Below, in pieces: positions 3,494-44,805 of a stretch of 46,078 bases of DNA (position 1 is the stretch's first letter; the number at the start of each line of letters is the position of its first letter). The DNA comes from a virus: positions 1 to 46,078 of the IMG/VR virus record IMGVR_UViG_3300036901_000105; one strand, written 5' to 3'. The translations under genes were made by a program, and so were the position numbers. The notes under the pieces are model-generated. The model searched no databases and was not told where the DNA came from. It saw nothing but the letters and a program-made list of their open reading frames with translations.

Positions 3494-4957
3494 ATGTCTA
3501 ACTTCGTACAAACGGAACGCCTCGACCAGAACCGCATCCGCATCTTATCCGACCTAGAGATCGTCCTGTTCGCCAACGAACAGGTGCCGGTGGATCGTGC
3601 GTCCCTCCAAGAAACCCTCACCATCTCCGAGATCAAGGCGACCATCGCCGCCCTGAATCGCCTCCGCTTCTTTGGTGATTATGACGCCGCGATCAATCGT
3701 GCCGTGCTCACGCCGGATTTCCATAAAGGCTCCGGCATACCCATCGGCACAGTGCTCGATGCGGACGGCCTCGTGCTGCCGCAATGCGTGGGAACTGATG
3801 TGTCCTGTGGCATGAGGCTCATCACCACCGACATGACGCGAGAGGATTTCGCGCGCTGCGTCAATCTCGAAAATATCCTGAGACATGCTTTTTTCGAAGG
3901 CGGCAGGGATATTCCGTTCAGCGAGGCAGGCCGTCTCGGAATGCTGCGCGAAGGCGTCATCGGTCTCAAACCATTGAATGTCGGCATCTGGAACCATATC
4001 GATCAATCACAGATGTTCAACGAACTCGACCATACGCATCAATACGGCAGTTGGCCCACCAAGGATTTGTGGATGTTCGCCGACTATGTGAAAGGGAGCG
4101 GGGGTGTCAGCCGAGATTCCGCCATCGGATCAATCGGTGGTGGCAACCATTTTGATGAAATTCAGTACGTCGAGGAATGCCTCGATAAACCGACCTGTCA
4201 GGAATGGGGCATTCGCGAAGGCATGATCACGGTCATGGCGCATACCGGCTCGGTCGGTCTGGGCAGCATGGTTGGTGATCATTTCGTGCAACTGGCGCGT
4301 AAACTGCATCCGACATCGCTCAAGATGCCGAAGCACGCCTACCATCCGCTACCGACTGTGGGGCCTTTGGCGGCGCATGGCGATGCCTATTTGTCGGCGA
4401 TGGGACTGGCGGCGAACTTCGCCACTGTCAATCGTCTGATGATCGGCGCGGTGACCCTGCGATGCCTGTCCGACGCCTTGGGACGCGCGGTGCATGGACG
4501 GCTGGTCTATGACGCGCCGCATAACCTGGTCTGGTCCAAAGGCCAGCATCATCTGCATCGGAAGGGAGCCACACCGGCTGATTGCGATCCTGATGACGCG
4601 GTGTTTCCGAACGGCCATCCGGTCATCGTGCCGGGGTCCATGGGGGACGCCAGCTACATCCTGCGCGGGCGTGGCAGCCTCGCCAGTCTTTGCTCGGCAC
4701 CGCATGGCGCGGGTCGTTTGATGGCGCGTGGCGAGGCGCGCAAGGCGTCGCCGGATGAGATGCAGTTGATCCGGGTGGTGACCAAAATCGATCTGAATAA
4801 AGTTCGGCGTGACATCGCGGATGAATATCGCAGGGATTTGATGGAGGAAGCGCCGAGTCAGTACAAACCCGTGTTGCCGGTGATTGAAACCGTGGCGAAT
4901 GCTGGTATAGCTTCGCCAGTGGCTCGGTTGCGACCACTGTTGACGGTGAAAGGATGA
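3494..4957 (+). CDS. rtcB: RNA-splicing ligase RtcB
   Basis: A full-length 487-residue RtcB, the GTP- and Mn-dependent ligase that joins RNA 2',3'-cyclic-phosphate or 3'-phosphate ends to 5'-OH ends. The metal and catalytic residues are visible: D102 and C105 (TDVSCGM), H219 (GGGNHFDEI), H250 (AHTGSVGLG), H343 (DAPHNLVW), the HRKGATPA loop near 355-362, and the guanylylated histidine H404 in SAPHGAGR. Nothing essential appears missing. It heads a rightward cassette with a small ORF, a Nudix hydrolase and KptA. In a phage the obvious job is repairing tRNA or rRNA cut by host toxins or anticodon nucleases, the role T4 gives to Pnkp and Rnl1; that is inference. Confidence 0.95.
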   Translation: MSNFVQTERLDQNRIRILSDLEIVLFANEQVPVDRASLQETLTISEIKATIAALNRLRFFGDYDAAINRAVLTPDFHKGSGIPIGTVLDADGLVLPQCVGTDVSCGMRLITTDMTREDFARCVNLENILRHAFFEGGRDIPFSEAGRLGMLREGVIGLKPLNVGIWNHIDQSQMFNELDHTHQYGSWPTKDLWMFADYVKGSGGVSRDSAIGSIGGGNHFDEIQYVEECLDKPTCQEWGIREGMITVMAHTGSVGLGSMVGDHFVQLARKLHPTSLKMPKHAYHPLPTVGPLAAHGDAYLSAMGLAANFATVNRLMIGAVTLRCLSDALGRAVHGRLVYDAPHNLVWSKGQHHLHRKGATPADCDPDDAVFPNGHPVIVPGSMGDASYILRGRGSLASLCSAPHGAGRLMARGEARKASPDEMQLIRVVTKIDLNKVRRDIADEYRRDLMEEAPSQYKPVLPVIETVANAGIASPVARLRPLLTVKG

Positions 4958-5134: not shown

Positions 5135-5661
5135 AAGTTGGTGAGACTAGAATGAAAGACGCGTTCTGTTCCTATTGTGGAGGTCCTCATACGGCCACCA
5201 GATATCCCAAAAAATGTGATCATTGCGGGAGCGAAACATATTTGAACGCTCCGGCTGTGGGCATCGGTCTCGTGCCAATCAATGGTGGTTTGTTGGTCAT
5301 TCAACGTGCTATAAAACCCTGTATTGGTGAATGGGCTCTGCCGGGAGGCTATAAGGAGATTGGTGAAACCTGGGAACAAGGCATCGCCCGTGAGATATTC
5401 GAGGAGGCGGGACTTCGGGTCGATCCACTTGGCATCACTCTGGCACCATCCGGGGTGAAAACCGCCAATAATGGTGGTGTGCTGGTTTTCGGATTATGCA
5501 AACCTTTGTTCATGGCACGTCCACTCCAGTTCAAATTCGACCATGAGACCTTAGACGCCAAAATAGTCACGGAGTCAGTACCTTTATGTTTTCCACACCA
5601 TCAGACAATGCTCGACTGGTTTTTTTCTCGTGACACCCAAACAGAAAATCAAGGCCAGTAA
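5131..5661 (+). CDS. Nudix hydrolase with N-terminal zinc ribbon
   Basis: 176 residues. A four-cysteine zinc ribbon (CSYC...CDHCG, residues ~13-33) precedes a Nudix box: GGYKEIGETWEQGIAREIFE with EEAG following, which fits G-x5-E-x7-R-E-x2-E-E-x-G. Nudix enzymes cleave nucleoside diphosphates linked to another group, for example NADH, ADP-ribose or capped RNA. The zinc ribbon is reminiscent of NudC-like NAD/NADH pyrophosphatases, although the NudC SQPWPFP-type motif is not seen. It lies between RtcB and KptA; KptA releases an ADP-ribose phosphate, so a linked role is conceivable. An alternative start at 5152 also has a plausible ribosome site. Confidence 0.85.
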   Translation: MKVGETRMKDAFCSYCGGPHTATRYPKKCDHCGSETYLNAPAVGIGLVPINGGLLVIQRAIKPCIGEWALPGGYKEIGETWEQGIAREIFEEAGLRVDPLGITLAPSGVKTANNGGVLVFGLCKPLFMARPLQFKFDHETLDAKIVTESVPLCFPHHQTMLDWFFSRDTQTENQGQ

Positions 5662-6235
5662 ATTTCTCTGCCTGATCCTCAGGCACAAACCGGAAGTTGG
5701 TGGAATTGTCGTCGATTCCGAGGGTTGGGCGAACTCTCAATCGGTCCTGCGAGCCTTGCAGGATAATTTCGCTGGGATGACAAACACCATCCTTCAGGAA
5801 ATCGTCGCCGAGGATGAAAAGCAACGCTATTCGTTCTCACCGCACATGGCCAACATCCGCGCCAATCAGGGACACAGCCTGCCGGTCGAACTTGGTCTCG
5901 TTGAAATCGAGCCTCCTGAGTTTCTGTTTCATGGAACCGCCAAGAAAACCGTTTGGATGATACGTCGTGATGGCTTGTTGCCGATGGACAGACAATATGT
6001 ACATTTGTCCGAAACCGAAGAAACCGCGATCAAGGTTGGCAAACGACATGGTGAACCGGTTGTTCTCATCGTGCGTGCATGGGAGATGTATGCCCTGGGG
6101 GGGTTGTCTTTTTTTCGCAGTGAAAATGGCGTATGGATGTCGCAGGCCGTTCCGTCAGACTATCTGATCTTTAGGGAACTATCAGATGATGAACAGGAAA
6201 CCGATCATCCATACGTTCTCAGCCAAAGAGGCTGA
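5630..6235 (+). CDS. kptA: RNA 2'-phosphotransferase KptA/Tpt1
   Basis: 201 residues, close to bacterial KptA length. This NAD-dependent enzyme removes an internal RNA 2'-phosphate at a ligation junction, producing ADP-ribose 1'',2''-cyclic phosphate and nicotinamide. All four signature basic residues are visible: R18-H19 in LILRHKPE, R77 in IRANQGHS and R121 in the DRQYVHLS region; FLFHGT (98-103) is the NAD-binding segment. The gene overlaps the Nudix gene by 32 bases. RtcB joints carry no 2'-phosphate, so KptA would be needed for products of another ligase type or for modified or ADP-ribosylated RNA ends. Confidence 0.93.
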   Translation: MTPKQKIKASKFLCLILRHKPEVGGIVVDSEGWANSQSVLRALQDNFAGMTNTILQEIVAEDEKQRYSFSPHMANIRANQGHSLPVELGLVEIEPPEFLFHGTAKKTVWMIRRDGLLPMDRQYVHLSETEETAIKVGKRHGEPVVLIVRAWEMYALGGLSFFRSENGVWMSQAVPSDYLIFRELSDDEQETDHPYVLSQRG

Positions 6236-6515
6236 GATACTCGGCAAGGCTTATCATAAGAAAATGGGTCAGCCAGTTCGCGGTGATTCCACGGCTGAAA
6301 CCGCCCGTCAGTTGGAATTGGTTGGACTGGTCTCAATCGAGGACATCGATTATGGCGGGGCACGAGAAAGAGAGAAATATCGCCGGAAAGGTAATCGCCT
6401 TCAAGGCGGAAAACATCAGGGTGGTATTCTCGTGAAAGTGACCAGTGCCGGTCGCGAAGCCTGGATCAACGCGGGTTTGATCGCGGCTGGTCGGCAACCA
6501 AAGTGTCTGGATTAA
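6186..6515 (+). CDS. Unknown protein ending the RNA-repair cassette
   Basis: A 109-residue basic protein starting 50 bases inside kptA (a second ATG follows immediately). The N-terminal half (TFSAKEAEILGKAYHKKMG, then AETARQLELVGLV) reads like a small winged-helix or helical domain, followed by a lysine- and arginine-rich middle. A role in RNA or DNA binding would fit but is unproven. Its last four bases overlap the convergent repeat-protein gene. Confidence 0.5.
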   Translation: MMNRKPIIHTFSAKEAEILGKAYHKKMGQPVRGDSTAETARQLELVGLVSIEDIDYGGAREREKYRRKGNRLQGGKHQGGILVKVTSAGREAWINAGLIAAGRQPKCLD

Positions 6516-9500
6516 GGTGCCAGGAAGAAGAACAATCTGGTCTGATCATCCTTGGTGTAGGATCGTGCGATGTCAATCGAACTTCCGGTCTCGATGATAG
6601 AGGCGATGAATTCCGAGGCGACAATGCTCACGAGGTCGGATGACGCACCGGTTTCGATGATGGAGGCGACAAATCTTGATGCCGCCTCACTGACCGTGTC
6701 GGTCGCCGCGCCGTTTTCCGACACGGTAGCATGAAAGCCCGATGGCGTGGCATCGCTCGTGTCGGATGTCGAGCCAGTCTCCGCCGCCCCACCGAGATAA
6801 GTTGAGATCGTGACCTCGACTGTATCGCTGGCCGCACCGGTCTCGATGTTGAACACATAGCCAAAATCAAAGGTATCAGGAGCATCGACCGCTGAACCGC
6901 TTTCGGTGATGACGGAGTTATAGATCGAGCCAGGCGCGTCCACGTCATCGTTGGCCAATGATGCGAATTCAAAGGTGGCCTTGTAAATGATGTCGTTGCC
7001 GTCCACGGCGTCAGAGGCCGCGCCACTTTCCGTGATCGCCTCCTGGCTGAAATCGACATCGCTGACCGTATCACTCGCGGTGCCCATTTCGGTGATGGCA
7101 GCAACATAGGTTGAAGCTGTTTCGTTGACAGAAACACTGGCCGATCCGCTTTCAGTGATGACACCCACATAAGTCGACGCGATGAAATTGACGCCATCGC
7201 TCGCGGAACCCGACTCGGTAATCGTCTCCTGACTCGAATCGACATCACTGACCGTATCGCTCGCCACACCGGCTTCAATGATCATCCCGACATAAGTTGA
7301 AGCAGCGAAATTCACCGTGTCATTCGCGGAACCCGACTCGGTGATCGTCTCCTGACTCGAATCGATATCGCTGACCGCGTCGCTCGCGGAACCAGCTTCG
7401 GTGATGACAGCAACATAGGACGAGGTCGTTTCGTTTACGGAATCAGACGCCGAACCAGATTCGACAATGGCTTCTTCACTCACGTCGATGACGCTGATGG
7501 TATCCTTAGCTGAGCCAGTCTCGATAATCATGCCAACGAAGGTCGAAGCTGTTTCGCTTACGGTGTCATTCGCTGATCCAACTTCTTGTGCTATTCCGGT
7601 ATAGACCGATGATATCGTAATTACGGAGTCGGATGCCGAACCGGTTTCTGTCACGACTTCGGAATAAACCGAATCAAATTCGTTCGCCGAATCCGACGCT
7701 GAACCGGACTCGGTTATCGCGCCCCCATAGACCGATGATGTTTCGCCCACCGCGTCGGATGCCGAACCGACTTCGGCCACGGCACTAACATAGGTCGAAT
7801 TCGTCTCATTGACGGTGTCGGTCGCGTTCGCGCCGCCTTGTTCGGATATTCCTTCGATGCTGAAATTCACGGCGCTGATGGTATCGCTCGCCGAACCAAT
7901 CTCGCTGATCGCTCCAACATACGTCGATGCGATGAAATTGACCGCATCACTAGACGAGCCAGACTCTGAATTTGCTCCAACATAAATTGAAACGGTGAAA
8001 TTCATCGAATCCGTTGCTGATCCGGTTTCTGCCACGACTTCAGTGAAATTATCTGTTGTATCCGATGCGAAACCAAATTCCGCAACGACCACCAGGTTGA
8101 CGTTTGAATCAACATTGTCACTCGTAGAACCATTTTCTACGATGGCCTGTGTGTTGACATCTCCCGCGCTGATCGCATCGCTCGCCGAACCAATCTCGCT
8201 GATCGCTCCAACATACGTCGATGCGATGAAATTGACCGCGTCACTCGCGGAGCCGGATTCTGATGTTATACCAACGTACGTTGAGGTGGTGAAATTGACG
8301 GCATCCGATGAGGAACCGGTCTCAGCGATTGTCTCCTGGCTGTAATCCACATTACTGACCGTGTCGTTCGCGGAACCAGCTTCGGTGAGGGCACCGACAT
8401 AGATCGAAGTTATTTCGTTGATGGAATCACTCGTGGAACCGGTTTCAGAAATGGCACCCATATAGGTGGAAGCTGTTTCGTTGACGGAATCACTGGCCGA
8501 TCCGGTTTCAGGGTTGGCTCCAACATAGGTTGAGGTGTTGAAATTGACCGCATCCGATGCCGACCCGGATTCGGTGATGACCTGAGCATTCGTATCAGCG
8601 CCATTGACTGCATCGCTGGCCGATCCGGTCTCGCTTATCGCCGCGCCATAAACCGAATTGGTCTCGTTCACGACATCCGACGCGGACCCGGCCTCGGTGA
8701 TGGTCTCCTGACTGGAATCGACATCGCTTACCGTATCGCTCGCGAAACCAGATTCCGCGATGGCACCAACATAGGTTGAATTCGCGAAATCGGCAGAGTC
8801 CGATGTTGATCCTGTTTCAGAAATGGCACCCACATAGATGGAAGCCGTTTCATTCATTGTATCGCTTGCTGAACCGGATTCGGTGATGGTCTCCTGACTG
8901 GAATCGACATCGCTTACCGTATCGCTTGCGGAACCAGATTCCGCGATGGCACCAACATAGGTTGAATTCGCGAAGTTGGCTGTATCACTCACCGATCCGC
9001 TTTCGGTGATCGCTCCAACATAGGTTGAAGCGCTGAAATTGTCAGCGTCCGCCGCTGAACCAGATTCCACGATGATCTGGATTGTCGTATCGACGGCGCT
9101 GATCGTATCGCTCGCGGAGCCGGTCTCCGAAATAACAGACAAGAAGGTCGATGCCGTTTCGCTCGCGGTATCGCTCGCGGAGCCGGTCTCCGAAATAACA
9201 GACAAGAAGGTCGATGCTGCTTCGGTGACAGTATCAGCCGCCGCGCCTGTTTCAGAAATTATCCCGACATAGGTTGACGTGGTGAAATTTACCGCATCAC
9301 TGGCTGAACCGGCTTCTACGATGAAGCCATTATAGCTGGAATTGCTTATACTGATCGAATCGCTGGCGGAACCAGATTCGGTGATCGCGCCAACGTAGGT
9401 TGAAGAAGCGAAATTGACCGCGTCACTCGCTGATCCGCTTTCGGTGATCGCTCCAACATAGGTCGAATTGGTTTCATTGACGACATCAGATGCTGAGCCA

Positions 9501-10996
9501 GATTCAGTTATGGTCTCCAGGCTGACATCGACAACACCGACCGTATCGCTTGCTGAACCTGATTCAGTTATGGTCTCCACGCTGGAGTCAACATCACTGA
9601 CAGCGTCGCTCGCTGAGCCACTTTCGCTGACCGCGCCAACATAGGTCGAAATCGTGAAATTAACCGCGTCACTGGCCGAACCGGATTCCGCGATGTTTTG
9701 ATAGTTCGCGTCTGATGAATTGCTGCTATCGCTGGCTGAGCCACTTTCGGTGATGGTGCCAGCCCAGGTCGATGTCGTGACATTGTCCGCGTCATTGGAC
9801 GAGCCACTTTCGGCGATGATGCCAGCCCAGGTCGAGGGCGCGAAATTTGACGCGTCAGTGGCTGAACCAGATTCGGTGATGACTCCGACATAAATTGATG
9901 TCGTTTCATTGACCGTGGCACTGGCCGAACCAGTTTCGGCGATGGCTCCAACATATGTTGAAGTTGTTTCATTGACCGTATCGATGGCCGATCCACTTTC
10001 CGTGACGGTAGTAGCCCAGGTTCCGCTCGCATTGACCGCGTCGCTGGCCGTTCCACTTTCGGTGATGGCCCCGACATAGGTCGAGGTCGTGAAATTAGCC
10101 GCATCGCTGGCCGATCCAGATACCGTGATGGTTCCAGCCCAGGTTGACGTGGTGACATTTGGCGTATCGCTGGCCGATCCAGATTCCGTGATGGCCGCGC
10201 CCTTCACATAGGAGTAGTTGACGCTATCAGTATCAGTTGATGTCGTGCCAGGCTTGAAAACCGCCATATTGGCGATGAAATCGTACTGGTTCGCCGTGGT
10301 GCTGAGCGTCCACATCGGGTTGGTCGCGATGGCGGAGGATTGCACGAGATACGCAAGCGCCGAACCACAGAAACTGCCGTAGGTCGATAAGTCCTGATTG
10401 GTGATGATGAAGCCAATATTCACCGAGGCGGTGGCACCAGTACCACCAGAGAAGTTGCCCTCATTGGTGATGATCAGGCAGTCGTTCTGTGATGGCGTCA
10501 GCGATCCCGGCTGAAGGGTTCCGCTACCGGTAGTGCCTGAATAAACACCGCTCGTCTGATCGAGTGGAGATGTGGTGGCGACGCCACTGAACGCGGCGAC
10601 CTGTTGACTACCATATCCTTGGTTCATCGCGCATGTGAAGGTATGACCGGTGCCAACCGTTGGGTTGGCGACATAGAATAAGTACTCCGCCTGATTTTGA
10701 CTGGCACCATTCGGCGGGTTGGCGTATCTGACCGCCAACGTCCAGGTGTTGCCATAAGAGTCAGATGGAACTGGAGCGGTTTCATTGATTGCGATGTACT
10801 GGCCAATTGACATCACCAGCAAGGTCGCGCCCGTGGTGTTTATCGAGGTGCTGGTGGTACTGGTGCTAGTGTTGCCGTTCCAGTCGACGTTCGAGACCAG
10901 CGCGATCTTACTCGCCTTGGTCTCGATGATCACGCCAAAGCCGGTTGGATAACCGCCGACCGTGGAAGAACTTAGGGGTTGACCGCCGAACATCAT
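6512..10996 (-). CDS. Giant repeat protein, probable tail fibre or virion adhesin (1494 residues)
   Basis: The first ~250 residues are rich in Gly, Ser, Thr and aromatics (GNTWTLAVRYANPP, AFSGVATTSPLDQTSGVYSG) and look like a jelly-roll or lectin-like beta domain. The remaining ~1220 residues are about 60 tandem copies of a 20-21-residue unit with consensus I-x-E-S-G-S-A-S-D-x-V-N-x-x-x-S-T-Y-V-G-A, in two interleaved flavours (STYVGA and VDSSQET endings). The last residues (TRLFFFLAP) break the pattern. Low-charge, Ser/Thr-rich repeats of this kind fit an extended beta-structured stalk. It lies 54 bases downstream of a collagen-like gene in the same direction, so both are probably host-contact or virion-surface proteins. 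No catalytic motif is seen. Confidence 0.75.
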   Translation of the reverse strand: MMFGGQPLSSSTVGGYPTGFGVIIETKASKIALVSNVDWNGNTSTSTTSTSINTTGATLLVMSIGQYIAINETAPVPSDSYGNTWTLAVRYANPPNGASQNQAEYLFYVANPTVGTGHTFTCAMNQGYGSQQVAAFSGVATTSPLDQTSGVYSGTTGSGTLQPGSLTPSQNDCLIITNEGNFSGGTGATASVNIGFIITNQDLSTYGSFCGSALAYLVQSSAIATNPMWTLSTTANQYDFIANMAVFKPGTTSTDTDSVNYSYVKGAAITESGSASDTPNVTTSTWAGTITVSGSASDAANFTTSTYVGAITESGTASDAVNASGTWATTVTESGSAIDTVNETTSTYVGAIAETGSASATVNETTSIYVGVITESGSATDASNFAPSTWAGIIAESGSSNDADNVTTSTWAGTITESGSASDSSNSSDANYQNIAESGSASDAVNFTISTYVGAVSESGSASDAVSDVDSSVETITESGSASDTVGVVDVSLETITESGSASDVVNETNSTYVGAITESGSASDAVNFASSTYVGAITESGSASDSISISNSSYNGFIVEAGSASDAVNFTTSTYVGIISETGAAADTVTEAASTFLSVISETGSASDTASETASTFLSVISETGSASDTISAVDTTIQIIVESGSAADADNFSASTYVGAITESGSVSDTANFANSTYVGAIAESGSASDTVSDVDSSQETITESGSASDTMNETASIYVGAISETGSTSDSADFANSTYVGAIAESGFASDTVSDVDSSQETITEAGSASDVVNETNSVYGAAISETGSASDAVNGADTNAQVITESGSASDAVNFNTSTYVGANPETGSASDSVNETASTYMGAISETGSTSDSINEITSIYVGALTEAGSANDTVSNVDYSQETIAETGSSSDAVNFTTSTYVGITSESGSASDAVNFIASTYVGAISEIGSASDAISAGDVNTQAIVENGSTSDNVDSNVNLVVVAEFGFASDTTDNFTEVVAETGSATDSMNFTVSIYVGANSESGSSSDAVNFIASTYVGAISEIGSASDTISAVNFSIEGISEQGGANATDTVNETNSTYVSAVAEVGSASDAVGETSSVYGGAITESGSASDSANEFDSVYSEVVTETGSASDSVITISSVYTGIAQEVGSANDTVSETASTFVGMIIETGSAKDTISVIDVSEEAIVESGSASDSVNETTSSYVAVITEAGSASDAVSDIDSSQETITESGSANDTVNFAASTYVGMIIEAGVASDTVSDVDSSQETITESGSASDGVNFIASTYVGVITESGSASVSVNETASTYVAAITEMGTASDTVSDVDFSQEAITESGAASDAVDGNDIIYKATFEFASLANDDVDAPGSIYNSVITESGSAVDAPDTFDFGYVFNIETGAASDTVEVTISTYLGGAAETGSTSDTSDATPSGFHATVSENGAATDTVSEAASRFVASIIETGASSDLVSIVASEFIASIIETGSSIDIARSYTKDDQTRLFFFLAP
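6580..10195 (-). repeat. Long tandem array of ~60/63-bp coding repeats
   Basis: About 60 degenerate copies of a 60- or 63-bp unit, in frame in the giant repeat gene. Some stretches are nearly identical at DNA level, for instance around 8690-8790 and 8880-8970, and around 9110-9150 and 9170-9210, which suggests recent duplication or conversion. Boundaries are approximate. Confidence 0.85.
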
Positions 10997-38810: not shown

Positions 38811-39191
38811 TTATTGGAGTAAAATAACTCCGCCAACGGCTTCGACCTTCGCCTTAATCGCTTCGGCGTCAACCTTGCTGACGGTTTCGCGCAGCGTCTT
38901 CGGCGCGTTGTCCACCAGGTCCTTGGATTCCTTCAGACCGAGCCCGGTGATCGCCCTGACTTCCTTGATGACGTTGATCTTCTTCGCGGGATCGGTGACC
39001 GCCGATAGGATCACGGTGAATTCGGTTTGTTCCTCGACGGCTTCCACGGGTCCCGTCTGTGTCACTGGCGCGATCTGCGCCGGAGCGGCGGCGGACACAC
39101 CCCATTTTTCTTCCAGCAGTTTGGAGAGTTCTGCTGCTTCCAACACGGTCAGTTGCGATAGCATCTCCGCGATTTCGACAAGATTCGCCAT
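38811..39191 (-). CDS. rplL: Ribosomal protein bL12 (L7/L12)
   Basis: 126 residues from ATG 39191, eight bases after a perfect AGGAGG; E. coli L7/L12 has 121. All parts are present: the N-terminal dimerisation helices ([35 protein letters not shown]), an Ala/Pro/Thr hinge (~38-55), and the C-terminal domain that contacts translation factors ([49 protein letters not shown]). bL12 forms the ribosomal stalk recruiting EF-Tu, EF-G, IF2 and release factors. Phage copies of bL12 are known; they may exchange into host ribosomes to bias translation. Leftward operon, no other ribosomal gene adjacent. Confidence 0.95.
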
Positions 39192-39241
39192 ATTCAAGTC
39201 CTCCTGTTGTCAACGCATTTAGGATGCGCGTTGATCGCGAG

Positions 39242-40826: not shown

Positions 40827-41069
40827 ATGGCGGAAATCGATGATCGCGTCGGAGTCATTCTCAGATACAAAGTTGATGAACTGAATGTTAGATTTCTTGG
40901 CTACGGCGTCTACCAGGGAAAGTTTAAGACCCCGGCGTACCCATCGTTCAGGGACATCTTCCGAAGAACACTGAACGAAACTCTAAACAACGTTAGCACT
41001 ATCGTCACTTGGTACAGGGGGTCGGATTCGAACCGACGAAATGAGCGCCTTATGAGGACGCGGCCTTAA
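40827..41069 (+). CDS. Probably truncated small gene running into an antisense tRNA
   Basis: 80 codons with an excellent GGAGGTAA site. Residues 1-~50 (MAEIDDRVGVILRYKVDELN, then FLGYGVYQGKF) look like the start of a known small phage-protein type with a G-Y-G-V-Y-x-G motif that normally continues to a conserved end. Here residues from ~62 onward (TWYRGSDSNRR) are simply the reverse complement of the tRNA at 41010-41088, a classic artefact. The gene therefore seems cut by tRNA acquisition. Confidence 0.45.
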   Translation: MAEIDDRVGVILRYKVDELNVRFLGYGVYQGKFKTPAYPSFRDIFRRTLNETLNNVSTIVTWYRGSDSNRRNERLMRTRP

Positions 41070-41088
41070 ACCACTTGGCGACCCCTGC
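41010..41088 (-). tRNA. tRNA with CAT anticodon (Met/Ile2-like), CCA encoded
   Basis: On the minus strand: acceptor GCAGGGG/CCCCTGT (one G-U pair), three-base-pair D stem GCC/GGC with a long loop, anticodon arm GCGTC-CTCATAA-GGCGC, seven-base variable region, T-arm GTCGG-TTCGAAT-CCGAC, discriminator A and CCA. The anticodon CAT could serve Met or, after lysidine modification, Ile. The D-arm looks more like those of Gln, Ser or Leu tRNAs, so identity is uncertain. Confidence 0.8.
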
Positions 41089-41107: not shown

Positions 41108-41806
41108 TTACCACATTTTGTCCATCTTGCCCTTCATGAACTCGGTCGCCGACATGGACTTTCCGGTGACATGATCCTTCACCGTGTCATCCTGGAACCG
41201 AATGGTTCGCTTCTTATCGGATCGCTCACCGGTCCCTACCTGAGTTCGGCGCAGATTGTTTGTCGTCTCACCGGCCAGTTTCCCAGACAGGCGATCAAGC
41301 TCCTGGTTGATTGCAGCCAAGGCATTATTATAGCTGTTCTGACGACTTCTGGTCTGAGCCGTTCGAACTATGCCTGATGGCAGATGCGTTATTCTGGCAC
41401 AACAGGCTGTCTTCTGGTGATTTTGCCCACCCGCGCCAATGGTCCCGTTGAACCATTGAACCGAGAAATCATCCTCGGATCGGCTATCGTACTTTGTGCT
41501 TACCAAAACCTGATCGAGCACGGCGACAGTCACCGTGGAGGAATGAACCCGGCCTCGGTTCTCGGTTGGCGGGATACGCTGGAGCCTGATGGCCCCGGAT
41601 TCATTGATGAGGTTTTCGGCTCCTTTGCCCTCGATTTCGAGGGTGACAGACTGATGTCCGGCGTGCGTGTCCAGAGCCAGGCCGCACGAATACTTTCAAT
41701 TCAGGCGGTCGGCCAGTCTGATATAGGCGGCGGCAAGCTGGGCGACGAAGATTTTTGCGTCAGTTCCGCCCTCGCCCGAACGTATCTCAATCACATGCTT
41801 ACTCAT
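41108..41806 (-). CDS. RF1-like peptide chain release factor with in-frame UGA at codon 37
   Basis: One frame of 232 codons broken only by TGA at 41696-41698. Codons 1-36 (MSKHVIEIRSGEGGTDAKIF, then VAQLAAAYIRLADRLN) match the PCRF start of RF1. After the TGA come ESGAIRLQRIPPTENRGRVH (~69-88), whose I-P-P-T matches the RF1 P-x-T codon-recognition motif (UAA/UAG), the catalytic G126-G127-Q128 (GAGGQNHQKT), and the RF C-terminal region (RSDKKRTIRFQDDTVKDHVT). RF domain 1 is absent. At the TGA, other RFs often have Trp (RxGW). The ATG has AAGGA upstream and overlaps the zinc-ribbon gene by eight bases. Readthrough would give a full factor; a GTG restart at 41533 would give only the GGQ half. 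Confidence 0.8.
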
Positions 41807-42191
41807 TTATCTTATCCTTCCAGAACTGTCTTATCACATAATCCGCCCCACAAAAGCAACACCATATGATGGCCCTATTTACGAAATGTGGCCGAACCTG
41901 CAACATGGCGGAGCACCCCGTGCATTTCCTGAGGACATTGTCGGATAGTTGAAGGCCCGTCGCGAGATCGAAAAAGATGCCAATCCCTGGCGCGTCCGCC
42001 TTCCTCTCGACTTTTATGCTTGGGAAATCAGCGAGAACCTTCTTCCCAACTTCCCTGGCGGTCGCCCGTGACATGCGAACCTGACTAAACTCCTGCATGA
42101 TCGAAAACGCCGCCTGCATATGAGCGGGATTGCGTGGATCACGATCCAGCAGAATTCTCGGCGGCGATCTTCGTCTTGCTTGCGGCGGCAT
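41799..42191 (-). CDS. Zinc-ribbon protein coupled to the release factor
   Basis: 130 residues from ATG 42191 (TTG 42203 and ATG 42119 are alternatives). A basic N-terminus (RRRSPPRILLDRDPRNPAHM), a helical middle (MSRATAREVGKKVLADFPSI) and a C-terminal four-cysteine zinc ribbon (KCTGCSAML...WCCFCGADY). The stop overlaps the release-factor start by eight bases, so the two are probably co-translated and may act together. Nucleic-acid or ribosome binding is a reasonable guess. Confidence 0.55.
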   Translation of the reverse strand: MPPQARRRSPPRILLDRDPRNPAHMQAAFSIMQEFSQVRMSRATAREVGKKVLADFPSIKVERKADAPGIGIFFDLATGLQLSDNVLRKCTGCSAMLQVRPHFVNRAIIWCCFCGADYVIRQFWKDKINE

Positions 42192-42262
42192 TGACAGGTC
42201 CAAAGAGACGAATCATGCTTACCAAAGATGGTGCGAAACGTCAATGCCGGAAGGTGGAAACG

Positions 42263-42796: not shown

Positions 42797-43705
42797 ATGC
42801 ATATTCTTTCAGTCGATCAGTTCACAAAATCCATGGTTGAAGATTTCGTTGAGGATGCGGCACGTTATCAAAAACTCAGTCGTTATGAGTTGCTCGCCCG
42901 TCGCGGTCCCGCCCACGGAAAAATCCTCACCAATCTGTTCTATGAACCGTCGAGTCGAACTTACGCCTCTTTTCATTCCGCCATGGTGCGGCTTGGCGGT
43001 AGCGTGATCCCGATCCAAGAGGCTGAAGTATTCTCCTCCGCCGTCAAAGGCGAAAGCCTCGAAGACACCATCGTGGCGATGGCGAGTTATTCCGATGTGA
43101 TCGTGCTCAGACACAAGGAGAATTTCGCGGCATCCCGAGCCAGCGAAGTTTCCGAAGTTCCCGTCATCAATGCCGGAGACGGCACCAATGAACATCCAAC
43201 GCAGGCGTTGCTGGACTTCTTCACCATTCTGATGGAACGGGGCTGGCAACCGGATCAATCCATCGAACAATGTCTGAAAGGATTGATCGTCACCATGATG
43301 GGTGACCTCAAACATGGTCGAACCGTTAAGAGTCTGTCCAAATTACTTCGCAAATTTAAGATTCCCATCAACTGGGTGTCACCCGATGATCTCAGCATTC
43401 CAATGGAATTCTACCAGGATGGTGATTCAGAAAGTAATCATCTGAACGCTCTCATCGCACAAACCGATGTACTGTACGTGGTGCGCGCCCAGGCGGAACG
43501 GCATGATCAGGTTCATCAGGTTTCGTATGACGTGACTTTGGAGCATATGAAGCAAGCCAAGTCCGACATGGTGCTGATGCATCCGTTACCACGAAAATCA
43601 GAGCTTCCAACAGAGCTTGACTCTGATCCTCGCGCGGCCTACTTCAGGCAGATGAAATACGGCTTGTACATGCGAATGGCGATTCTCGAAACAGTTCTAT
43701 CGTGA
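42797..43705 (+). CDS. pyrB: Aspartate carbamoyltransferase, catalytic chain
   Basis: 302 residues, normal catalytic-chain length. It condenses carbamoyl phosphate and aspartate in the first committed step of pyrimidine synthesis. Active-site residues are visible: S52-S53-R54-T55 (EPSSRTYASFH), K84 (AVKGESLEDT), R105 (VIVLRHKE), H133 and Q136 (HPTQALLDFF), the GDLKHGRTVKSL strand, R near 232 (VVRAQAER) and the HPLPR loop near 270. A CAGGAG site precedes ATG. No regulatory PyrI chain is seen, so it should lack CTP feedback. Viral copies would raise pyrimidine supply for DNA synthesis. Confidence 0.95.
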   Translation: MHILSVDQFTKSMVEDFVEDAARYQKLSRYELLARRGPAHGKILTNLFYEPSSRTYASFHSAMVRLGGSVIPIQEAEVFSSAVKGESLEDTIVAMASYSDVIVLRHKENFAASRASEVSEVPVINAGDGTNEHPTQALLDFFTILMERGWQPDQSIEQCLKGLIVTMMGDLKHGRTVKSLSKLLRKFKIPINWVSPDDLSIPMEFYQDGDSESNHLNALIAQTDVLYVVRAQAERHDQVHQVSYDVTLEHMKQAKSDMVLMHPLPRKSELPTELDSDPRAAYFRQMKYGLYMRMAILETVLS

Positions 43706-43824: not shown

Positions 43825-43964
43825 ATTTTAACTTTGGTGCATTCCTCCTGGCGGTCGTGCCATTCCTCGGATTTCACTTTTGGCTCCGTTGGCGATTGGA
43901 TCAAGACAGAGCCAGAGATTTGAAGAAGACAAAATTTAAGGAATCCGATGACTCAGATAATTGA
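43818..43964 (+). CDS. Tiny membrane protein (48 residues)
   Basis: ATG 43818 inside the end of the preceding ORF. One N-terminal membrane segment (FGAFLLAVVPFLGFHFWL) and a highly charged tail (RWRLDQDRARDLKKTKFKES). Overlaps folD by 17 bases. The pair of nested tiny membrane proteins between pyrB and folD is unexplained. Confidence 0.5.
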   Translation: MVNFNFGAFLLAVVPFLGFHFWLRWRLDQDRARDLKKTKFKESDDSDN

Positions 43965-44805
43965 CGGCAAGAAGATCGCCGAGGCGATTTGTCGCGACAT
44001 TGCCGAACAGGTGAAGACTCGCCACCGTGACCCGTATCTCGCCGTGATCATCGTTGGAAACGATCCGGCCAGCGAGATTTATGTTCGGCGCAAGGAACGG
44101 GTAGCCACTCAAATTGGCATCACCACGGACATCAATCGGTTCCCCTCAGATATCACGCAGGATGCTCTTGAGTCGTTCATCTGGGAACTCAATTCCAATC
44201 CATTGGTCGATGGCATCCTCATTCAGTTGCCATTGCCCAAGCACATCAATCGCAACTTCATCGTCGAGCAGATCGATCCCGAGAAGGACGTGGATGGGTT
44301 CCATCCGCTGAACGTGGGCCGGTTCACGGCTGGCGATCCGATCCACACGCCATGCACGCCCAAAGGCATCATGAAGCTCCTGGACGCCGCAGGAGCGGTC
44401 CTGAAGGGAACGGAAGCCCTGGTCATAGGAACCGGTGCCGTTGGTCGTCCAACCGCCCTGCTGCTCAGCCAGGCCGGAGCGACCGTGACGATGGCGAACA
44501 GTCAGACCCGCGATCTCGACGACCTTTGTTGGCGATCCGGCATCATCGTCGCGGCGGCGGGTTGTCCGAACCTCGTCAGGGGCAACCATCTCTGGGACGA
44601 AGGTCAAACCACCATCATCGATGTCGGGATCAATCGTCTCGCCGATGGCAGCATTGTCGGTGATGTCGCATTTGATGAATGCGTGGGGATCGTCAGAGCG
44701 ATCACACCGGTCCCCGGTGGTGTCGGGCCGATGACGATTGCGTGTCTGATGGAGAACACGCTGGAGTGCTATTCACGATTACGGATTTTGAAAAGGAACA
44801 TTTGA
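43948..44805 (+). CDS. folD: Methylenetetrahydrofolate dehydrogenase/cyclohydrolase FolD
   Basis: 285 residues (E. coli 288). A bifunctional enzyme interconverting 5,10-methylene-, methenyl- and 10-formyl-tetrahydrofolate with NADP. Catalytic residues: Y45 and K49 (IYVRRKERV), Q93 (GILIQLPLP) and D116 (DPEKDVDGFHP). The nucleotide-binding loop reads VIGTGAVGRPTA (usually a GRSxxVGxP-like form), and the signature TPVPGGVGPMT is intact. It supplies one-carbon units for thymidylate and purine synthesis. It lies in a nucleotide-metabolism operon with pyrB. Confidence 0.95.
   Translation: MTQIIDGKKIAEAICRDIAEQVKTRHRDPYLAVIIVGNDPASEIYVRRKERVATQIGITTDINRFPSDITQDALESFIWELNSNPLVDGILIQLPLPKHINRNFIVEQIDPEKDVDGFHPLNVGRFTAGDPIHTPCTPKGIMKLLDAAGAVLKGTEALVIGTGAVGRPTALLLSQAGATVTMANSQTRDLDDLCWRSGIIVAAAGCPNLVRGNHLWDEGQTTIIDVGINRLADGSIVGDVAFDECVGIVRAITPVPGGVGPMTIACLMENTLECYSRLRILKRNI

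Follow-up and report, generated by a model that had tools for sequence, protein, structure and literature searches.

Frameshifting in bacterial prfB is the classic case of recoding in a release-factor gene: an early in-frame UGA blocks the gene of the class-I factor RF2, and a +1 shift at CUU-UGA is needed for the full-length product. Few cases of programmed readthrough are documented in bacteria and their phages and, as far as we are aware, RF1 is held to be without recoding control. Across 8,164 genomes, a 2025 survey encountered neither programmed recoding of prfA nor a UAG at the prfB site (PMC12421855). The class-I release factor R726 (eRF1) of Mimivirus and Megavirus is expressed by readthrough of a UGA-C, with Trp proposed as the inserted residue, plus a frameshift; expression of the viral factor rises as host release factor falls, and compensation was proposed (PMC3521657). 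Bacterial prfB and the Mimivirus eRF1 are the closest precedents for the locus described here. The portions of the huge-phage paper that deal with release factors and stop codons list RF1 and RF2 among phage translation genes and make no mention of an interrupted gene (PMC7162821). The open-access literature yielded no report of this phage family or of a recoded RF1-type or phage factor; subscription papers were mostly outside this coverage, and priority is thus uncertain.

The locus lies in a 46,078-nucleotide stretch of viral DNA (IMG/VR record IMGVR_UViG_3300036901_000105, hereafter the window), a 46-kb genome fragment. We regard it as highly probable that programmed recoding of an internal UGA governs the synthesis of an RF1-type release factor encoded here, a conclusion drawn from sequence without protein or ribosome-profiling data. 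The gene shares with prfB the early in-frame UGA that would make recoding necessary for a full-length class-I factor, but it is of RF1 type, the inferred event is in-frame readthrough that leaves the frame unchanged, and the site falls within the PCRF domain. The likeness to R726 is that there, too, a virus carries a release-factor gene whose expression depends on a readthrough UGA, together with a frameshift. However, R726 is a eukaryotic/archaeal-type eRF1 unrelated to RF1, combines both events in one gene and belongs to a virus with a eukaryotic host, whereas the phage family is bacterial and appears to divide readthrough and frameshifting between sister clades. The relevant features of the window are:

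41108..41806, minus strand: RF1-type release-factor gene, 232 codons with the TGA counted as sense, without RF1 domain 1
41696..41698, minus strand: in-frame TGA, the putative recoding site, codon 37 of the release-factor gene
41699..41806, minus strand: N-terminal PCRF piece of 36 codons, the predicted product of termination at the UGA
41108..41695, minus strand: remainder of PCRF with PPT and the GGQ domain, predicted to be made only upon readthrough
41684..41695, minus strand: 3' context of the TGA, nucleotides +4 to +15 (AAG TAT TCG TGC), with A at +4 and family-wide suppression of synonymous change
41564..41572, minus strand: PPT codon-recognition motif (RF1 P-x-T class), codons 79-81
41423..41431, minus strand: GGQ catalytic motif, codons 126-128
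41662..41688, minus strand: potential hairpin CGTGCG-15 nt-CGCACG from a single fold, starting 8 nt 3' of the TGA; weak evidence
41799..42203, minus strand: upstream ORF of 134 aa without a Pfam match, whose end overlaps the release-factor start codon (AAATGAGTAA), making translational coupling possible
41010..41088, minus strand: tRNA gene with a CAU anticodon, 19 nt 3' of the release-factor gene, which may be a lysidine-type tRNA-Ile2 instead of a tRNA-Met

The proposal of the sequence-only reading that an RF1-like gene runs in the same frame on both sides of the TGA is confirmed by translation, by a domain match across the TGA and by profile scores. The minus strand from 41806 to 41108 translates as MSKHVIEIRSGEGGTDAKIFVAQLAAAYIRLADRLN-stop-KYSCGL...RIPPTENRGRVHSS...GAGGQ...KMW-stop, with one in-frame TGA and an identical frame on either side. 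The Pfam PCRF match (2e-23) spans the TGA and covers residues 4-94, the Pfam RF-1 domain is recovered at 4e-14 (52.9 bits against a cut-off of 35), and the NCBIfam prfA (RF1) profile scores 160-166 bits against 97 bits for prfB (RF2). The prfA equivalog test is not met (166 bits against a cut-off of 400), with only profile positions 107 to 334 or 342 aligned, so that domain 1 is missing. The codon-recognition motif is PxT rather than SPF (PPT in the window and in 105 of the 110 clusters scored), and GGQ is invariant in 29 aligned sequences. The same reading had placed the TGA at the Trp position of release factors, and it indeed aligns with the Trp of the solved RF1s of Thermotoga maritima (AERKGWNLEV; structure entry 1rq0, which we take to be this protein) and S. 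mutans (NQGWKFEV), in RKGW; the window reads RLN-UGA-KYS and most relatives KG-UGA. An AlphaFold model with Trp placed at codon 37 has a pLDDT of 92.3, a helix (15-34) and a strand (38-46) flanking the UGA, and ribosome-bound RF1 as its best PDB matches (TM-score 0.86-0.87). The gene product thus shares with bacterial RF1 (prfA) the PCRF and GGQ domains, the PxT motif and the fold, and differs in lacking domain 1 and in its interruption by UGA. The gene encodes a short class-I release factor of RF1 type; the sequence favours, without proving, RF1 specificity, and action at UAA/UAG is predicted, with no release data.

Comparison of homologues for a conserved TGA or a TGG had been named as the test of the proposal, and its outcome is one-sided. 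An alignment search of IMG/VR recovered 397 relatives, and in every one of the best 80 (80/80), examined for an internal stop, the frame is broken once only, by a TGA at the same codon, which is far more than chance would give. The seed peptide patterns (EGG.D and R.PPTE) both lie outside the TGA site and the query had Trp at the TGA, so that TGG relatives would have scored higher; no UGG version was found among these best 80 even though the query favoured TGG. In a tree built from 113 representatives after clustering at 75% identity, the clade of the window (SH-aLRT 99) comprises 53 clusters, all 53 with a single UGA, and recoding state changes 15 times over the tree against 44 for shuffled labels. 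Three further scans were added, every scan keeping its best 80 matches, and the family-wide frequencies are therefore approximate: among 194 distinct genes typed there are 133 with a single UGA, 14 with a double UGA, 3 with UAG, 2 with UGA plus UAG, 15 with a UGA frameshift, 3 with a UAG frameshift, 1 with a UAA frameshift and 23 uninterrupted. Some 17 of the 112 phage clusters lack an internal stop, and recoding is hence not essential for every member; the uninterrupted members fall mostly in one clade, that of LR756511. In the named huge phages LR745206, LR756504, LR756501 and LR756502, the same domain is interrupted in frame by one TGA or by two. Single-sequence searches of IMG/VR found no relatives either with the window protein or with the control gene FolD, so that alignments were needed, and a megablast comparison of 16 kb of window sequence with named phages in general gave no near relative.

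Copies with the in-frame UGA are also present in the assembled genomes of two cultured bacteria, Thalassospira xianhensis and Jiella sp., each of which additionally encodes two full-length RF1-family factors (about 356-368 aa). Two complete plasmids, pRlX5 of Rhizobium leguminosarum TP16 and pBSY19_1 of Bosea sp. RAC05, carry such copies as well. Plasmid 2 of Variovorax sp. WDL1 carries a related UGA-split gene, with similar matches in three more Variovorax strains. The internal stop makes annotation miss the gene: the Bosea site lacks a release-factor call, and in Variovorax two ORFs are called. As the copies come from independent sequencing projects, assembly error is excluded. The main alternative that had been raised for the window, in which one TGA breaks the frame by nonsense mutation, pseudogene formation or sequencing error and only a GGQ fragment is made from the GTG at 41533, is practically untenable given that the same TGA recurs in all of the best 80 relatives and in isolates and plasmids sequenced independently, together with purifying selection either side of it; such a restart would also lose the PPT motif. 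Judged by this conservation, the internal stop is kept in hundreds of large phages and some plasmids and is not decay.

The selection in question is apparent from pN/pS values, over 123 pairs of relatives, of 0.19 for the 33 codons before the UGA and 0.24 after it, which indicate purifying selection on both sides. Synonymous divergence among 54 representatives is about 1.0 of expectation along the gene, apart from the codons around the UGA, where it falls to 0.74 at codon -1 and to 0.25, 0.44, 0.61 and 0.52 at codons +1 to +4, and in nine-column windows the gene reaches its minimum across the UGA. A Lys immediately after the UGA is encoded by AAG in 21 of 21 cases, as against 338 of 725 Lys codons elsewhere in the same genes, where AAA is commoner (387; P about 1e-6). 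The A directly after the TGA (UGA-A), singled out in the sequence-only reading, is present in the window and in 44/54 of the clade, while U is found in 0/54, U at +4 being the base that lowers readthrough in bacteria (PMC5289835).

Two further explanations were weighed. The first is a split factor, in which a 36-residue N-terminal chain would be complemented by a C-terminal chain made by reinitiation. The conservation of both halves could be read in its favour, but no in-frame ATG, GTG or TTG exists within 20 codons 3' of the UGA in 36 of 53 clusters, the frameshift-type sister genes fuse the halves into a single chain, and the UGA cuts through a single PCRF fold, which leaves this explanation highly unlikely. 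The second is selenocysteine insertion, for which UGA is the codon and for which a hairpin can be drawn 3' of the UGA in the window. Single-sequence folds give good hairpins in the window and in loci L018, L021, L040 and L094, yet RNAalifold over 50 relatives predicts no base pair; the criterion of a conserved SECIS-like hairpin is not met, and no conserved stimulatory structure is claimed. In addition, the site is Trp in RF1, UAG or frameshift sites substitute for UGA in sister genes, and no tRNA-Sec was found in the regions scanned save for one doubtful UCA tRNA in locus L255, so that selenocysteine is barely tenable.

The sister clades depart from the window both in the position of the stop and in the way it would be passed. 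In one of them the N-terminal half lies in a different frame and is joined by a +1 shift at CTT-TGA after GGAGGGG or similar (GGAGGGGTCTTTGA), at the codon equivalent to the UGA of the window; this is the architecture of prfB, and the prfB-type criteria (slippery CUU-UGA, upstream Shine-Dalgarno sequence, frame change) are met there but not in the window. Other clades have the UGA at about codon 43-46 or 49-53 of the PCRF domain, sometimes two of them, or UAG. UAG or UAA takes the place of UGA in loci L109, L178, L195, L124, L196, L213 and L169; UAG in some members of the phage family contrasts with its absence from the prfB site in the bacterial survey (PMC12421855). We argue from these shifting positions and mechanisms that selection maintains the stop itself rather than a single residue, and infer that the rank order of internal stops, UGA > UAG > UAA, fits a choice of leaky stops. 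The family thus amounts to a large, deeply conserved group of RF1-type release factors whose genes are interrupted by a UGA or a prfB-like shift site; it spans several separate lineages, has two mechanisms and places the stop at three or more positions. It provides naturally occurring readthrough contexts that could be studied. One frameshift-type member (L007:1904-2555; LR745208) has TSN and not PPT (QRTSNGRIHSS), and may differ in which stops it recognises.

Phages with recoded stops are known, and those using code 15 or code 4 that carry RF1 or RF2 share with the present family a phage-encoded release factor and internal stops. They differ in that the code of the window genome is standard and recoding affects the release-factor gene itself. 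TGA terminates 32 of the 51 window ORFs of 100 aa or more. In four relatives it accounts for 12-46% of long-ORF stops: 42/214 in LR756501 and 23/191 in LR745206 (about 400 kb scanned in each), 93/204 in a 578-kb contig (about 400 kb) and 61/167 in a 364-kb contig (360 kb). Within the same scanned regions of these four relatives (360-400 kb each) there is no tRNA with a UCA anticodon and no other gene convincingly interrupted by TGA, and no suppressor tRNA occurs in the release-factor flanks of the first 80 relatives. The remaining candidates for a TGA interruption in the relatives appeared to be adjacent genes sharing one frame. Genome-wide reassignment of UGA to Trp (code 4) would account for the in-frame TGA and for an RF1-type factor, as code 4 would want, but against these stop counts and in the absence of the expected signs (in-frame UGA in many genes, a UCA tRNA) it has only a very slight claim; a late-infection code switch limited to a few genes is not excluded. 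These are standard-code phages and not instances of a code change, and there is no confirmed UGA-suppressor tRNA. Readthrough of the UGA of an RF1-type factor, as the sequence-only reading had suggested, is supported in that the marks of programmed readthrough are present: a conserved stop, coding constraint on both sides, nucleotide constraint on the 3' context and a codon that is otherwise a stop.

Over all loci scanned, one tRNA-like gene with a UCA anticodon was found (L255:4313-4384, plus strand), about 1.6 kb 3' of a UGA-interrupted release-factor gene; its acceptor stem is imperfect, and a UGA suppressor tRNA is a possibility resting on a doubtful gene. The 578-kb contig of locus L094 (G016; loci L353-L372) has two tRNAs with CUA anticodons (UAG suppressor type), yet TAG ends 42 of its 204 long ORFs. 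Phage tRNA-Trp(CCA) genes were observed at L016:3715-3788, L019:1199-1272, L023:3913-3985, L408:3033-3104 and elsewhere, and in some phages (L016, L023) they lie close to the release-factor gene. By simple position count 12 of 18 have A24, and several are without the top anticodon-stem pair. A24 is the feature of the Hirsh UGA suppressor, and both A24 and the missing stem pair are linked to UGA readthrough; A24 is also natural in some bacteria. Without a bacterial background rate, a role of A24 in favouring UGA readthrough is only suggestive.

In the mechanism that we propose, ribosomes would reach the UGA at codon 37, where most would terminate through host RF2 and release a 36-residue peptide, and a fraction would decode the UGA, likeliest as Trp by the near-cognate tRNA-Trp(CCA), and complete the 232-residue factor. 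Given that UGA is one base from the Trp codon of RF1 and that UGA-to-Trp readthrough is a known phenomenon, tRNA-Trp(CCA) is the simplest decoder; insertion of Trp is plausible and unproven. Such readthrough would compete with RF2, so that output would go up when RF2-dependent termination is limiting, supplying additional UAA/UAG termination capacity when RF2 is short. The terminator of the family's own genes is UAA in 71 of 78 readthrough clusters, and the factor would top up termination at UAA. A double UGA would steepen the response, and fairly efficient readthrough would be required in the members that have it. The making of the factor probably depends on how well the cell stops translation. 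The occurrence of readthrough, the identity of the inserted residue, the sensing of RF2 and any advantage to the phage are all inferred.

The sequence-only reading had cast the arrangement as release-factor autoregulation; the recoding part of that claim is supported and the autoregulatory part is not established, since by its sequence the factor has RF1 specificity (UAA/UAG). With such specificity the UGA most simply senses host RF2, a form of cross-regulation, unless the factor also reads UGA; we consider the case for this RF2-sensing reading evenly balanced. True autoregulation, in which the factor would also recognise UGA despite its PPT and repress its own readthrough as RF2 represses prfB frameshifting, seems to us unlikely while remaining a serious possibility. 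Sister genes do use a prfB-like frameshift site with UGA, UAG or UAA replaces UGA in a few genes, which would fit if any stop that the factor reads suffices, some members have Gln instead of the conserved His of RF1, and most have a Glu in the alpha-5 tip (AEGG instead of GTGG). Nevertheless, PPT and the Gln181-type residues match RF1, the HMM score is higher for RF1 than for RF2, and the dominance of UGA is equally explained by its being the leakiest stop. Returning to RF2 sensing, we suggest, at about even odds of being right, a widespread phage and plasmid device in which an RF1-type factor is gated by a UGA that RF2 reads; the element would thereby gauge host UGA termination and contribute termination of its own during RF2 shortage, with readthrough of one or two UGAs and +1 frameshifting as interchangeable gates at one point, in convergence with giant-virus eRF1 and bacterial prfB. 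The reason why large phages carry release factors thereby becomes testable, whether as compensation for a host RF2 shortage or as its exploitation.

The window also encodes ribosomal protein L7/L12 with both Pfam domains (38811-39197, minus strand), in the same genome as the release factor. RtcB RNA ligase (3494-4957, plus strand) and the KptA/Tpt1 RNA 2'-phosphotransferase (5630-6235, plus strand) form a neighbouring RNA-repair pair, and an aspartate/ornithine carbamoyltransferase gene (42797-43705, plus strand) adjoins FolD (43948-44805, plus strand), these being genes of nucleotide and one-carbon metabolism. A 1494-residue protein (6512-10996, minus strand) contains many degenerate repeats (ESGSASDxVNETxSTYVG) and probably has a structural or adhesion role.
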